45,354 nt of DNA, from contig CATAMV010000057.1 in the NCBI GenBank assembly GCA_949487855.1, positions 1-45,354 on the forward strand, written 5' to 3'. Both the position numbers and the translations under genes were made by a program. This DNA is from Bacteroidota bacterium. GTDB lineage: Bacteria; Bacteroidota; Bacteroidia; Flavobacteriales; Flavobacteriaceae. Shown here one piece after another: positions 40,196 through 45,354 of this stretch. Position 1 is the stretch's first letter; each line of letters opens with the position of its first letter. Under the pieces are notes generated by a model that made no database searches, was not told the origin of the DNA, and worked only from the letters and a program-made list of their open reading frames with translations.

Positions 40196-41371
40196 ATGAG
40201 TTTAAACTTCTCCTATAGAAACCAACGCAATTTCAAGATTGCGGGGTTTGCGCTCGTATTGTGTTTTGTTGGATTTACCCTTTGGAACACCAATAAACTT
40301 ATTCAACGTATTCAAGAAGATGAGCGTCTTGAGATGGAGCTTTGGGGTTTGGCACAACAAGAACTCGCATCCAGTAAAGATCTCAACAAACCTGTTAACC
40401 CATTAACATTCCAAATACTTACAGAAAAAAACACCATTCCCATGATCGTGGTTGATGGTGAAAGTAAACTCCTTTTTTCCAATAACATTAATGAACGAAA
40501 ATTGGCTCAAGATTCTGTAAATTATGTGAGGGAACTAATTAAAGAATTTAGTGCTGCTAATACACCTGTTGAAATCAGTTACAGCGACAGCTTGTACCAA
40601 AAAATGTATTACGGCAATTCTGCTCTGATTCAACAGCTACGTTATTATCCCATTGCTTTTTTTGTGATTTTAACATTATTGGGAGGTCTTTTGATTGCGT
40701 ATTATAAAAGTACGCAACAGTTGGTGGCTAACAAACTTTGGACAGGGATGGCAAAAGAAACCGCGCATCAGCTGGGAACGCCTATTTCTTCGCTTTTGGG
40801 GTGGTTAACAATTTTAGATCAGCACAAAGTAGATGAGAAGTTACTATCGCAAATTAAGAGTGATATCAAACGCTTGGAAACCATCAGTGCGCGCTTTTCA
40901 AAAATTGGCTCATTGCCTAATAAAAAGCACACAAAACTTAGTACTGTAGTGCAAGAGTTGGTTCCGTACATGCAAATTCGAATCCCCAAAGGCATTAGCC
41001 TTTGTGTAAATGAAAGTGGAGACGAATCTTTGGTTGAAATCAATTCGGAGCTAATAACTTGGGTGTTGGAAAATTTAATCAAGAATAGCATAGATGCAAT
41101 TCGTGGAGAGGGGTCAATTACTATCGATTTGGACTGGGAAAACGCTGCAAAAATCAGCATTATTGACACAGGAAATGGGATTCCAAAAAAACTTCAGAAA
41201 GTAATTTTCAATCCTGGAGTTACGACCAAAAAAAGAGGCTGGGGCCTTGGGTTATCATTGGCAAAACGCATTATTGAACAATACCACGGAGGGAAGATTA
41301 AGCTTTTAGAAAGTTCAGAAAAGGGAAGTGTTTTTATGATTCAACTGCCGCTTACACAAAAGCAGCATTGA
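40196..41371 (+). CDS. Membrane sensor histidine kinase
   Basis: The 391-residue kinase has a first transmembrane helix (FKIAGFALVLCFVGFTLW, residues 13-30), a periplasmic sensor of about 120 residues, and a second helix (YPIAFFVILTLLGGLLIAYY, about 151-170). The dimerisation/phospho-acceptor box is MAKETAHQLGTPISSLLGWL (His191), and the ATPase domain has ENLIKNSIDAI (N), IIDTGNGIPKK (G1) and KKRGWGLGLSLAKRIIEQ (G2). The H box ETAHQLGTPI is a form common in Bacteroidota. No response regulator is adjacent, so it is an orphan. The ATG of MSLNFSYRNQ is used. It overlaps the HIT gene tail to tail by 20 bp. Confidence 0.9.
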   Translation: MSLNFSYRNQRNFKIAGFALVLCFVGFTLWNTNKLIQRIQEDERLEMELWGLAQQELASSKDLNKPVNPLTFQILTEKNTIPMIVVDGESKLLFSNNINERKLAQDSVNYVRELIKEFSAANTPVEISYSDSLYQKMYYGNSALIQQLRYYPIAFFVILTLLGGLLIAYYKSTQQLVANKLWTGMAKETAHQLGTPISSLLGWLTILDQHKVDEKLLSQIKSDIKRLETISARFSKIGSLPNKKHTKLSTVVQELVPYMQIRIPKGISLCVNESGDESLVEINSELITWVLENLIKNSIDAIRGEGSITIDLDWENAAKISIIDTGNGIPKKLQKVIFNPGVTTKKRGWGLGLSLAKRIIEQYHGGKIKLLESSEKGSVFMIQLPLTQKQH

Positions 41372-41744
41372 TTTTTGCGGCAAGCGTTTTCATTTCTTCT
41401 TTTGACAAAGACGTCTTTTTTTGAAAGGTGGCTTCTGCCATTTCATTCAATGGAATTAAATGTACGTGAACATGCGGCACTTCAAGCCCAATAACCGATA
41501 GCCCAATACGCTTACACGAAACAACTTGCCTAAGCGCAGTAGCCACACGGCGACTAAACCGCATCAGATTTATGTAGGCTTCTTCATCTAAATCAAAAAG
41601 CTTGTCCGTTTCCTTTTTTGGTACACAAAGGGTGTGTCCAACTGCATTTGGATTAATGTCCAAAAAAGCAATGTGGTTCTCGTCTTCTGCAGCAATAAAG
41701 GCAGGAAGTTCACCTGAAATAATGCTACTAAAAATAGACGCCAT
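41352..41744 (-). CDS. HIT family nucleotide-binding protein
   Basis: The 130-residue protein is a histidine-triad hydrolase or transferase of the HINT branch: SIFSSIISGELPAFIAAEDENHIAFLDINPNAVGHTLCVPK at the N-terminus and the triad LEVPHVHVHLIPLNE. HINT proteins hydrolyse nucleoside phosphoramidates; the precise role is uncertain. The ATG overlaps the last base of the greA stop, so the two genes are translationally linked, a usual pairing in flavobacteria. Confidence 0.93.
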   Translation of the reverse strand: MASIFSSIISGELPAFIAAEDENHIAFLDINPNAVGHTLCVPKKETDKLFDLDEEAYINLMRFSRRVATALRQVVSCKRIGLSVIGLEVPHVHVHLIPLNEMAEATFQKKTSLSKEEMKTLAAKINAAFV

Positions 41745-42217
41745 TAGCGTTCAATGGATAAAATTTCAAACTTAAGCGTGCCGTTTGGAACGGTCACTTC
41801 AGCAATATCTCCTACGGTTTTACCTAAAAGTCCTTTACCAATGGGGGAATTAACCGAAATTTTTCCGGTTTTTAAATCGGCTTCACTTTCAGCAACCAGG
41901 TTATAATTCATTTCCATATTATTGTTCAGGTTTTTGATGCGCACTTTTGAAAGTACTAACACCTTGGAAACATCCAATTGCGACTCGTCAATCACGCGAG
42001 CACCCGACAGGGTTTCTTCAAGTTTTGAAATTTTCATTTCAAGCATGCCCTGCGCTTCTTTTGCAGCGTCGTACTCAGCATTTTCGCTCAAATCGCCTTT
42101 GTCGCGAGCCTCTGCAATAGCCTGCGAAGCACGTGGTCGTTCTACATCTTTTAGATGATTGAGTTCTTCCCGTAATTTTTTTAGCCCTTCGGCTGTGTAA
42201 TATGATACTGTACTCAT
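41744..42217 (-). CDS. greA: Transcription elongation factor GreA
   Basis: The 157-residue factor rescues backtracked RNA polymerase by stimulating cleavage of the transcript. The N-terminal coiled coil carries YYTAEGLKKLREELNHLKDVERPRASQAIAEARDKGDLSENAEYDAAKEAQGMLEMKISKLEETL with the acidic tip Asp/Glu in GDLSENAEY. The C-terminal globular domain ends with SPIGKGLLGKTVGDIAEVTVPNGTLKFEILSIE. All hallmarks are present. The leader carries a terminator-like hairpin just before the start codon, and the HIT gene follows directly. Confidence 0.97.
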   Translation of the reverse strand: MSTVSYYTAEGLKKLREELNHLKDVERPRASQAIAEARDKGDLSENAEYDAAKEAQGMLEMKISKLEETLSGARVIDESQLDVSKVLVLSKVRIKNLNNNMEMNYNLVAESEADLKTGKISVNSPIGKGLLGKTVGDIAEVTVPNGTLKFEILSIER

Positions 42218-42228
42218 GGGGTATTATT

Positions 42229-42253
42229 AAAAAATCCCTTATGTTTAAGGGAT
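42229..42253 (-). promoter_or_regulatory. Terminator-like hairpin in the greA leader
   Basis: On the minus strand ATCCCTT, a 6-nt loop and AAGGGAT (42253-42234) form a perfect 7-bp stem followed at once by a T-rich run. It lies 12-36 bp upstream of the greA ATG and just downstream of the predicted transcription start. It looks like an attenuator, or possibly a terminator producing a short leader RNA. Confidence 0.5.
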
Positions 42254-42710
42254 GAATGCAAATATACAATTTTCCTTTTTCTTGCGTTTTAAACACTTGA
42301 AATATGTTGTTTTCGTTAGTTTTTTTCTTTTGTTAAGTTGTGCCGAAAACAGCGTAGAGCGCAATCCGTATTTATTTGAAACACGATTTGACCAAAGCAT
42401 TAATTTAGCACTTCCTGCTTTTGATAACCTAAACTATCAAGGAGGGAGTTTGTATTGGGCAAATGGCGGTATCAAAGGATTGTTGTTATTTAATCTTTCT
42501 GGAACCATTATGGCGTGGGAAGCAAGTTGTCCGAACCATGCGCCAAGTAGTTGCTCTACGGTTCAAATTTCTGGAGTTACAGGCTCATGCCCATGTGAAG
42601 ACTTTCAGTACAGTTTGGCTACAGGTCAACCCCTTACGGAAGGAGCAACCTACAGCCTATTGTTTTATAAGGTGCAGCAAAATGGAACTGCGGTGCGGAT
42701 TTATAATTAA
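42252..42710 (+). CDS. Rieske-like lipoprotein lacking cluster ligands
   Basis: The 152-residue protein has a lipoprotein signal ending FFLLLSC and a domain resembling a Rieske ferredoxin: GGIKGLLLFNLSGTIMAWEASCPNHAPSSC, then VTGSCPCEDFQYSLATGQPLTEGATY. A functional Rieske centre needs CxH and CxxH. Here the first block is CPNH and the second is CPCE, so both histidine ligands are misplaced or lost and a 2Fe-2S cluster is unlikely. The ATG start at 42252 gives a long n-region; a TTG at 42297 would give the more usual MKYVVFVSFFLLLSC. It starts 35 bp from greA on the opposite strand. The function is unknown. Confidence 0.8.
   Translation: MNANIQFSFFLRFKHLKYVVFVSFFLLLSCAENSVERNPYLFETRFDQSINLALPAFDNLNYQGGSLYWANGGIKGLLLFNLSGTIMAWEASCPNHAPSSCSTVQISGVTGSCPCEDFQYSLATGQPLTEGATYSLLFYKVQQNGTAVRIYN
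42259..42266 (-). promoter_or_regulatory. -7 promoter box for greA
   Basis: TATATTTG on the minus strand matches TAnnTTTG and predicts a transcription start near 42252, about 35 nt before the greA ATG. No TTG is seen at the ideal upstream spacing. Confidence 0.5.
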
Positions 42711-43018: not shown

Positions 43019-45226
43019 TTAAAAACGAAGGGTAAGTCCTGCCATTACGTGGCGTCCTGCTTGCGGATAATAACCCACACCTTCTATGGTTGTAATTGCC
43101 GTTGGCGAACTCCAATCATCGTCATAAGTATAGAAATATCCATTTGAACTAAATACTTCATCTAAAACGTTGTAAACATGAACGTTTACATCTAATCGAG
43201 GTGGATTTTCGTTGTTTAAGATAACTGCCTGAAATTGTATGTCTTGTATGGTATAGCTATCCAGTTTAGAGAGTTCAGCATCTATATTCCCCATGTATTG
43301 CTCCCCAACATATTTACTCACAAGAGAAATAGACCATGTATCGCGTGAATAGGTTAACTGATCAGAAGCAATTAAAGAAGGAGAGTACGACAAATGGGTG
43401 TCACCTAAGGCTTGTAAAGCGCCATCGCGTTCAAAATATTTATCCTTATTTCGGTTTTTACTCCAAGACACATTGGCTTGCCAATTCCAATGGGGCGCAA
43501 ATGCCCAACCAGCATCTATCTCAATACCCCTTCGGAAGCTATCTCCTGAATTTTGACGAATTGGAGCCCCAACGTCGTCAAGAGCACCCGTTAGTACCAA
43601 CTGGTTTTTGTAGTCCATATAATAGAAGTTTGCATTTACATATGCCGCTTCTGTTTTCCAACGCCATCCCAATTCAAAATCATTTAATTCCTCTGGAACG
43701 GGATTGCCATTTTCGTAGTCTGTACGGTTGGGCTCTTTGTGTGCCTTGGCATAAGACGCATAAAGTTGATGTGCGGGATTGGGTTGATACACGACCCCTG
43801 CTTTAGGATTAAAAAAAGTGTGTGCATCATTAACAGAAAACGTTTCAGGTCCGGCCACTTCCCCTGCTACCGAATAATCAATCCAGCGAACTTGTGCATC
43901 GGCATAAAGATTCCAGTTGTCGTCCAAAGAAAGATCCCATTTAGTGAAAATATTGCCATCCTTTTTCTTTCCTCGGTTTTCATAAAAACGATGTTTTGGG
44001 TTTATGTTGGCAGTAGATGCCCATAATAATTCACCAAAATGTGCTCCGTTGTAGGCACTGTAATAGGCGCCTGCGCTGATTTCATGATTTTCATTAGTGA
44101 AATGATACATCAGGTTAGCCACATAAAAATCGTTATCCAACCACTTACGAACGGCATTCTCTGTTTCCGTAATCGCTTGTCCGTTAATGCTTAATGGAGG
44201 TAATTTTAGGTAGCTGTAGGAAGTGTCGCCGCTAAAGCTAACATTTTGGTCATACCATAAATCATAATATTCCTCGTAATAACCGTAACCATGGGTATAG
44301 TTTAAGCCCAAAGAGAGTCTAGCGTTATTGGACAATCGCTGTTCGATATGCAATTGTGTATGATCTTGCTTATAGTTATCTACTTGATTATCGTAATAAC
44401 CTTGCACGTTTCCTTCCTCGTCGTATTGTTCCCCAGCAGGATTATATGTTCTGTTGGATGCCAATGTGGCTGGATCAACGCCATACCACGCTTGGTAGGT
44501 GCGCTCGTGCCCCCCAAAAGTTAGTGCCTTAAATTTGGTGTTGTTTGTATTGTATGTTCCTTGAAGAAAATATCCTTTTAAGAGTGAAGAAGCACGATCA
44601 ATATAGCCGTCAGAGGTTATATTAGATAGGCGTCCACTAAACTCAAAACCACTTTCTGAAATTCCCGTGGAGAATTTTATCGTGTTTTTGAGTGTATTAA
44701 AACTACCTATGCTAGAAGCAAGTTGCGCATATGATTTTTCGGATGCTTTATCTGTTTCAAGGTTGATGCTTGCCCCAAAAGCGGCTGCGCCGTTTGTAGA
44801 TGTTCCTACACCCCGCTGCACTTGAAGGTTATCGGTAGATGAAGCAAAGTCAGATAAATTTACCCAAAAGGTTCCATGTGATTCGGCGTCGTTGTATGCA
44901 ATACCGTTTATGGTCACATTGACTCTGGTGGCATCGCTACCACGAACACGAATTCCTGTATAGCCGACTCCTGCTCCAGCATCACTTGTGGTTACCACGT
45001 TGGGTAAAAACCGCAATAGTACTGGTAAATCTTTTCCTAAGTTTTGTTTTTCCAACTCCTCTTTGGAAATATTTGTAAACGCCATAGGCGTATTCTCTTT
45101 TGCCCTTAGGGCGCTTACCGTAACCGATTCAAGTGTTACCGTATTAACTTTCAATGTATCTATGTCAGATTTAGCTTGTTGCGCCATTAGGCTTCCAGCA
45201 AGCAATAATGCAATAATAGTTTTCAT
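43019..45226 (-). CDS. TonB-dependent receptor, predicted thiamine (precursor) uptake
   Basis: The 735-residue outer membrane receptor has a signal peptide (MKTIIALLLAGSLMAQQ) and a short TonB-box-like region (TVTLESVTVSALRAKE). A plug domain follows at about residues 45-155 (PVLLRFLPNVVTTSDAGAGVGYTGIRVRGSDATRVNVTINGIAYND, VQRGVGTSTNGAAAFGASINLET). The rest is a 22-strand-type barrel ending in GRHVMAGLTLRF with the terminal Phe. The ATG at 45226 is used, since the longer track start lies inside a riboswitch. A TPP riboswitch in the leader indicates repression by thiamine diphosphate, so the ligand is predicted to be thiamine or a pyrimidine/thiazole precursor. Substrate by sequence alone is uncertain. 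Confidence 0.92.
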   Translation of the reverse strand: MKTIIALLLAGSLMAQQAKSDIDTLKVNTVTLESVTVSALRAKENTPMAFTNISKEELEKQNLGKDLPVLLRFLPNVVTTSDAGAGVGYTGIRVRGSDATRVNVTINGIAYNDAESHGTFWVNLSDFASSTDNLQVQRGVGTSTNGAAAFGASINLETDKASEKSYAQLASSIGSFNTLKNTIKFSTGISESGFEFSGRLSNITSDGYIDRASSLLKGYFLQGTYNTNNTKFKALTFGGHERTYQAWYGVDPATLASNRTYNPAGEQYDEEGNVQGYYDNQVDNYKQDHTQLHIEQRLSNNARLSLGLNYTHGYGYYEEYYDLWYDQNVSFSGDTSYSYLKLPPLSINGQAITETENAVRKWLDNDFYVANLMYHFTNENHEISAGAYYSAYNGAHFGELLWASTANINPKHRFYENRGKKKDGNIFTKWDLSLDDNWNLYADAQVRWIDYSVAGEVAGPETFSVNDAHTFFNPKAGVVYQPNPAHQLYASYAKAHKEPNRTDYENGNPVPEELNDFELGWRWKTEAAYVNANFYYMDYKNQLVLTGALDDVGAPIRQNSGDSFRRGIEIDAGWAFAPHWNWQANVSWSKNRNKDKYFERDGALQALGDTHLSYSPSLIASDQLTYSRDTWSISLVSKYVGEQYMGNIDAELSKLDSYTIQDIQFQAVILNNENPPRLDVNVHVYNVLDEVFSSNGYFYTYDDDWSSPTAITTIEGVGYYPQAGRHVMAGLTLRF

Positions 45227-45280
45227 TTGCGTATGGGCAAATAAAGGGGTATTATTTACAATGGTTTTTAGTGAAACAAA

Positions 45281-45348
45281 ATTCCTTGGCAGCATTACCT
45301 GCCCAGGTTCGATGGGTATAATCTCAGCCGTAAGGCACCCCTAGAGAT
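45281..45348 (-). promoter_or_regulatory. TPP riboswitch (THI element)
   Basis: On the minus strand the leader contains the conserved TPP aptamer blocks in order: CTAGGGGTGCC, GGCTGAGATTATACCC, GAACCTGGGCAGGTAATG, then CTGCCAAGGAA. These correspond to the invariant CUGAGA pyrimidine-sensing segment and the UAAUGC-like pyrophosphate-side segment. The aptamer ends 55 nt before the TonB receptor ATG. Binding of thiamine diphosphate should turn expression off. Bases ACCCCT at 45250-45245 can pair with AGGGGT of the aptamer (45342-45337) and may be part of the switch. Confidence 0.92.
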
Positions 45349-45354
45349 GATGCA

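Follow-up and report, generated by a model that had tools for sequence, protein, structure and literature searches.

A TPP riboswitch-linked, OMthi-type TonB-dependent receptor of Flavobacteriaceae and a proposed switch in its leader

The receptor gene and its riboswitch

The window analyzed, 45,354 nucleotides long, is one whole contig (G000:C57) of a 1.45 Mb assembly which consists of 129 contigs and is approximately 90% complete. A TonB-dependent receptor of 735 aa is encoded on the minus strand at 43019-45226. A plug domain (PF07715) and a beta-barrel domain (PF00593) were both found above cut-off in the protein (P0001) by Pfam and, together with the orthologs described below, they identify it as a predicted thiamine receptor of the OMthi type. 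The start codon was assigned to the ATG at 45226, from which the N-terminus MKTIIALLLAGSLMAQ reads, by inspection, as a signal peptide. The start at 45295 given in the open reading frame list (758 aa) was rejected, because that position falls within the aptamer and the signal peptide is read from 45226. An ORF of 152 aa, convergent with the receptor, occupies 42252-42710 on the plus strand; an ORF of approximately 137-157 aa recurs at the same position in relatives, and the version found in genome G001 has no Pfam match.

Upstream of the receptor, at 45265-45351 on the minus strand, the Rfam model of the TPP riboswitch aptamer (RF00059, positions 1-105) aligned over its full length by cmscan/cmsearch, with 42.2 bits and an E-value of 2.2e-7. 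Four THI boxes are present on the same strand at the window end: GGGGTGCC (45341-45334), CTGAGATTATACCC, GAACCTG and GGTAATG. These results confirm the TPP riboswitch that the initial annotation had recognized before the receptor. The THI element had been called almost perfect there; this holds for the boxes but not for P1 and P3, which are short, and the distance to the start codon, given as 55 nt, is in fact approximately 38 nt counted from the end of the RF00059 match and approximately 67 nt counted from GGTAATG. The contig ends 3 nt upstream of the aptamer and the assembly contains no sequence beyond 45354.

The gathering score of RF00059 is 54.3 bits, a practical curated cut-off rather than a biological feature. 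The aptamer scores below it, and for this reason a default Rfam scan of the window reported a tRNA alone and left the aptamer unlisted. A covariance-model score below threshold had been named in advance as grounds for rejecting the riboswitch; read literally, the score does fall short (42.2 against 54.3 bits), but this yardstick proved misleading and was discarded, since the orthologous receptor leaders of the genus score alike, at approximately 40-47 bits, with all core boxes intact. The core is nearly invariant in an alignment of 13 genus leaders. Among 60 relatives a match to RF00059 was obtained in 53, above cut-off in just 16, and many of the top-scoring matches lie approximately 0.7 kb before thiC. 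As the aptamers of the genus score equally low and keep their core boxes, the low score is best read as a lineage trait and a matter of model coverage, not as decay. The TPP element is real, in a short-armed form proper to the lineage; it is identified as a TPP riboswitch by its THI boxes and three-way junction, and the binding of TPP and an effect on expression are predicted.

The only TPP riboswitch match of the source genome sits on the receptor gene. The riboswitch-receptor pair was found in 12 of 16 same-genus genomes, once per genome and always with the receptor, and it is kept across the genus, the family, the order and the class Bacteroidia. Receptor orthologs are 73-94% identical within the genus and approximately 40-52% identical within the family and order; those of the genus are preceded by a TPP riboswitch wherever the leader is present. 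Homologs occur in the 80 named loci that were kept, nearly all from Flavobacteriaceae, and 79 of 119 class genomes have one at E below 1e-60. The THI core was present in 116 of the 121 loci with a leader and, by a simple pattern, in 22 of 29 more distant loci that were fetched. No relative of the receptor was found in viral contigs.

Matches of the receptor in NCBIfam and PDB were weak only and of siderophore type, and its assignment from sequence family alone was therefore abandoned. The receptor appears to belong to the OMthi (BT2390) type, an already known kind. A second receptor copy in a same-genus genome (G002:C60:1475-3087), 44-48% identical and detected as two overlapping matches with an in-frame TGA, is likely a decayed paralog. 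One record titled Klebsiella pneumoniae (L207) carries a Flavobacteriaceae-type locus, its assembly being mislabelled or contaminated.

Thiamine pathway genes and the upstream neighbourhood

ThiC and thiamine pyrophosphokinase (TPK) were absent from all 17 genus genomes and ThiE from 16 of the 17; ThiL was found above cut-off in 14. These genomes are 64-90% complete, so that single absences weigh little and consistent absence over 17 genomes does carry weight. None of PnuT, ThiC, TPK, ThiE and ThiL was found in the window's own genome; the absence of PnuT and ThiL was put down to assembly gaps, because relatives have both. The only ThiE-like gene of the genus (G012:C15:50752-51297, 207 bits) comes from a 70%-complete assembly and represents contamination or a remnant.

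Judged by gene content, the source bacterium, whose genome is small and streamlined, is apparently unable to make vitamin B1. The import of thiamine or thiamine phosphate would be necessary, since the genus is without ThiC, TPK and (in 16/17) ThiE. ThiL requires TMP and, with ThiE and TPK missing, TMP would have to be imported or made by an unrecognized thiamine kinase.

The thiamine-related substrate assigned to the receptor in the initial annotation is the best reading, with transport and the form carried as predictions. It is supported by the position of the genome's sole TPP riboswitch, by the class-wide conservation of the pair, by the auxotrophy of the genus (missing ThiC, TPK and ThiE) and by genetics: deletion of BT2390 (OMthi) raises the thiamine requirement of a biosynthesis mutant of B. 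thetaiotaomicron (PMC5613172). The same example bears out the earlier remark that riboswitch-controlled thiamine receptors are known in Bacteroidota.

It had also been remarked that no PnuT was visible in the window and that the upstream side was cut. This was found to be so: a PnuC-family permease is absent from the window and from its genome, and PnuT is missing from the window because the contig ends at the aptamer. The genes proposed for inspection beyond 45354 do not exist in the assembly, but relatives show a PnuC-family permease, a NadR-like kinase and DUF4301 there. The order in the same genus is AhcY (on the opposite strand), 4'-phosphopantetheinyl transferase, PnuC-family permease, NadR-like kinase (AAA_28), DUF4301, riboswitch and receptor, followed past the receptor by the convergent small ORF and then by GreA and HIT genes. 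One PnuC-family gene was found in 14 of 16 same-genus relatives, in 11 of them on the same contig, approximately 2.1 kb upstream of the riboswitch. The window contains GreA (41744-42217) and HIT (41352-41744) of this shared order, and its missing upstream genes are therefore very probably the same. Throughout the genus the aptamer starts 14-15 nt after the DUF4301 stop codon.

Several variants of this neighbourhood were observed. The NadR-like kinase and DUF4301 are fused in one reading frame at L046:9294-11474 (G022, 726 aa) and L156:1-1001 (G019), which is a hint of a common pathway; DUF4301 in L039 gave a weak UDPGP nucleotidyltransferase match. At L096:3688-5435 (G023) and L097:735-2492 (G027) a TPP riboswitch immediately precedes a PnuC-family gene, with an acyl-CoA-dehydrogenase-like gene next in line; this is possibly an unexplored thiamine-vitamer operon. 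At L050:5321-6597 (G033) one apparent operon comprises the riboswitch, the receptor, a protein of 235 aa for which NCBIfam gave no match, and PnuC; the NadR-like kinase is still upstream.

Two deeply separated clades emerged from a tree of 95 AAA_28 domains; clade 1 is the one adjoining PnuC or the riboswitch. Upstream sequence of 4 kb or more was available for 72 named loci, and 49 of them carry a clade-1 kinase upstream on the same strand; in six genomes without DUF4301 the stop codon of the kinase gene falls 11-32 nt ahead of the aptamer. Within the 60-genome sample every genome with this kinase also has a TPP-riboswitch receptor. Of 43 non-genus relatives, 32 possess the kinase, and it is missing from five of the six of these relatives that bear TPK (Fisher p = 0.0025) and from nine of the 16 with TPK or ThiE (p = 0.0007), both values being uncorrected for kinship. 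Clade-1 kinase, TPK and ThiE are all missing from two genomes only, one of 300 kb and one 83% complete.

From these sequence patterns we put forward the NadR-like kinase next to PnuC as a predicted thiamine kinase, though with considerable doubt, because these protein families also act on nicotinamide riboside and no decision came from the PnuC tree; the attempt to split thiamine from nicotinamide riboside permeases by this tree was given up, the root support being too weak. The PnuC and the NadR-like kinase of the relatives might instead form a nicotinamide riboside salvage pair which stands beside the receptor by chance, as their NCBIfam names (PnuC and NadR), the housekeeping genes in the same neighbourhood and the second PnuC directly under a TPP riboswitch in G023 and G027 would suggest. 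We hold this to be a serious alternative, though a doubtful one: chance would have to account for a kinase clade found only with the TPP-riboswitch receptor in 60 genomes, for its complementarity to TPK/ThiE (p = 0.0007) and for its ending 11-32 nt before the aptamer in six genomes, and a receptor-PnuC-bifunctional NadR cluster, likely the true outer-membrane nicotinamide riboside uptake system, occupies a separate locus in G017 (L099:4812-8426). The kinase bears as well on the cargo of the receptor. Import of a thiamine relative (TMP, TPP, HMP or another vitamer), in place of thiamine itself, would agree with a riboswitch that senses TPP rather than the imported form, and imported TMP would satisfy ThiL without TPK or ThiE; this seems unlikely to us, however, as thiamine is supported by the Bacteroides data and a kinase is conserved beside the PnuC-like permease. 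HMP alone would be insufficient, ThiC and ThiE being absent. With thiamine as the cargo and the NadR-like protein as thiamine kinase, the import pathway would lead from the receptor to the PnuT-like permease, to the NadR-like (AAA_28) kinase making TMP, and to ThiL making TPP.

Leader structures and the level of control

The sequence between aptamer and start codon is near-invariant in the 13 aligned genus leaders and follows a pattern common to the leaders of the family. Of 115 leaders, 110 have a -7 promoter box, TAnnTTTG (Bacteroidetes consensus: PMC7366714), 9-19 nt before the GGGG of the aptamer, where shuffled sequences would give 2; in the window itself its position falls beyond the contig end, and the box is seen in relatives. 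An intercistronic riboswitch with no promoter of its own, considered because the aptamer follows closely upon the DUF4301 stop codon, was dismissed on the evidence of this box.

Two hairpins lie in the leader of the window, both on the minus strand. The C-loop hairpin H1 (GUAAAUAA-UACCCCU-UUAUUUGC, 45237-45259) has an 8-bp stem, nearly invariant in the genus, and a C-rich loop, UACCCCU, at 45245-45251. The start-codon hairpin H2 (UUAUUUGC-CCAUAC-GCAAAUGA, 45223-45244) covers the AUG at 45226-45224. The two share an arm, the 5' arm of H2 being the 3' arm of H1, and AUUUGC is part of both. The loop is complementary over 7 bp to AGGGGUG at 45336-45342, which consists of the 5' strand of P2 and its flank in the aptamer.

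These elements recur in relatives. A C-run, CCYCT, is conserved near the leader ends: 96 of 115 leaders have it in their final 60 nt, against 8.1 expected from dinucleotide shuffles. The stem arms of H1 vary while their pairing is kept: GUAAAUAA/UUAUUUGC in the window, GAAUAA/UUAUUC in most Flavobacteriaceae, GUACAG/CUGUAC in L298, GUGAAAA/UUUUCAC in L293 and CCGACUGCA/UGCAGUUGG in G043. In swap tests, which like the shuffles keep composition and which related sequences inflate somewhat, so that the counts are inexact probabilities, native H1 arms from 41 class-wide representatives scored 13.0 against 9.8 (sd 0.4) for swapped arms, and 0 of 5000 swaps reached the native score. For H2, ending at the start codon, 0 of 2000 swaps reached the observed score, and a control pairing showed nothing. 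The complementarity of the loop to the aptamer 5' strand extends beyond the invariant GGGG, with covarying flanks: AAAGGGG/CCCCUUU, UUUGGGGU/ACCCCAAG (L306), UAAACAGGGG/CCCCUGUUUA (L299) and UACGGGGU/ACUCCGUG (G043); here too, for 39 class-wide representatives, the native score was reached by 0 of 5000 swaps. A pattern built on the Flavobacteriaceae version of H1 was run against 60 entire genomes; it matched 14 times, each time in a TPP-receptor leader, and its reversed control gave no match. A few leaders, e.g. L200, L253 and L302, are missing the C-loop element. Since H1 and H2 abut with no overlap in some other families, their mutually exclusive arrangement is, as far as the leaders indicate, not universal.

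The GGGG is needed both by the TPP-bound P2 and by the loop, so that the two pairings would be mutually exclusive. When TPP is scarce, the aptamer 5' strand AGGGGUG would pair with the loop UACCCCU, undoing P2 and holding the C-loop hairpin; with AUUUGC then less free to form the start-codon hairpin, the receptor would be translated. When TPP is plentiful, the GGGG would be locked into P2 and the C-loop freed, AUUUGC would pair with GCAAAU(G), the AUG would be buried and receptor synthesis would stop. The calculated energies are -3.8 kcal/mol for H1, -6.7 for H2 and -10.1 for the aptamer-loop duplex. Pseudoknot-free folding of the window leader left the AUG paired in the free and bound-like states alike, the aptamer-loop helix being compatible with the start hairpin. 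Simple energy folding was therefore discarded as a guide to the direction of the switch, and we infer which state opens the AUG from the expected logic of thiamine uptake, not from computation.

The structure of the leader points to translational control of the receptor. No terminator-like U-run was found in the leader after either hairpin. Of 57 TPP riboswitches examined by TaRTLEt, six were transcriptionally active, with no Bacteroides among them (PMC12121620), and start-region structure tunes initiation in F. johnsoniae (PMC6847099). By RNA-seq of B. thetaiotaomicron the OMthi mRNA level was unchanged with thiamine (PMC5613172), which fits translational control but might also reflect an absence of control under that condition. 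The proposed switch would be in keeping with translation initiation in this phylum, which does not involve Shine-Dalgarno pairing.

Termination or anti-termination of transcription, with the two hairpins as termination or processing structures, is improbable in our judgement: a U-run follows neither hairpin, and lineages that differ greatly have the second hairpin over or next to the start codon, although many TPP riboswitches do terminate transcription and the title of a 2019 preprint, as cited in PMC7366714, has Bacteroides TPP riboswitches regulate 'transcription or translation'. Going by that title, priority for translational control may rest with the preprint. We give slightly less credence still to a C-rich loop that never contacts the aptamer and acts as a protein-binding or ribosome-contacting element, its complementarity to GGGG being incidental. 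Such loops do resemble the anti-Shine-Dalgarno CCUCC and the GGGG is invariant, which leaves the core of the pairing unable to covary; its flanks, however, covary with the neighbours of the C-run (A/U, U/A, C/G and longer blocks), at a level reached by 0 of 5000 swaps.

Significance and relation to known systems

We are confident, short of certainty, that the locus is a riboswitch-controlled OMthi-type receptor of a Flavobacteriaceae bacterium which depends on external thiamine, with the leader switch and the import pathway as proposed parts of this reading. Comparison of the relatives shows a TPP aptamer, a fixed link to the receptor, a -7 box (in relatives), a C-loop hairpin with a loop able to pair with the 5' strand of the aptamer, and a start-codon hairpin. 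The finding of a receptor with a riboswitch is in itself ordinary, TPP-riboswitch thiamine receptors being already known in Bacteroidota, and the added value lies in the leader. In 2017 it was described as uncertain how TPP riboswitches act in Bacteroidetes (PMC5613172). The covarying structure reported here, present in varied lineages of the class, connects aptamer and start codon and provides exact bases to mutate. The gene content supplies a candidate, open to testing, for the thiamine kinase still missing from thiamine-dependent Flavobacteriaceae. No description of a C-loop platform or of a NadR-type thiamine kinase was found in the searched literature, which mostly did not extend to subscription journals. 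A wider proposal is made tentatively, as something rather short of probable: that thiamine-receptor riboswitches throughout class Bacteroidia share one undescribed platform, in which a C-loop hairpin catches the aptamer 5' strand and controls the hairpin at the AUG of mRNAs that have no Shine-Dalgarno site, and that in many Flavobacteriales TPK has given way to a NadR-family kinase next to PnuT, which would supply ThiL as a thiamine kinase.

The locus resembles that of OMthi BT2390 (PMC5613172) in its TonB-dependent receptor of approximately 740 aa, in the TPP aptamer of the leader and in a PnuC-family permease within the acquisition system. It differs in having neither thiamine biosynthesis genes nor TPK, and where the BT2390 system has pnuT-tnr3, the relatives studied here have the permease, the NadR-like kinase and DUF4301 upstream of the riboswitch. 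With RF00059 the aptamer shares all conserved boxes and the full model length; in contrast to the model it has short P1 and P3, a score (42.2 bits) below the gathering score and, in the leader, a second, competing partner for the GGGG strand.

E. coli thiM is a translational TPP riboswitch of Proteobacteria. Here too the translation start is probably masked in response to the ligand; the thiM type, however, has a Shine-Dalgarno/anti-Shine-Dalgarno step, which is absent here, the start codon lying in a hairpin beside the aptamer-complementary C-loop hairpin. Nicotinamide riboside uptake by PnuC and NadR is matched in the relatives by a PnuC-family permease beside a NadR-family kinase, but this protein has the kinase domain only, without the adenylyltransferase domain, and is tied to a TPP-riboswitch receptor.
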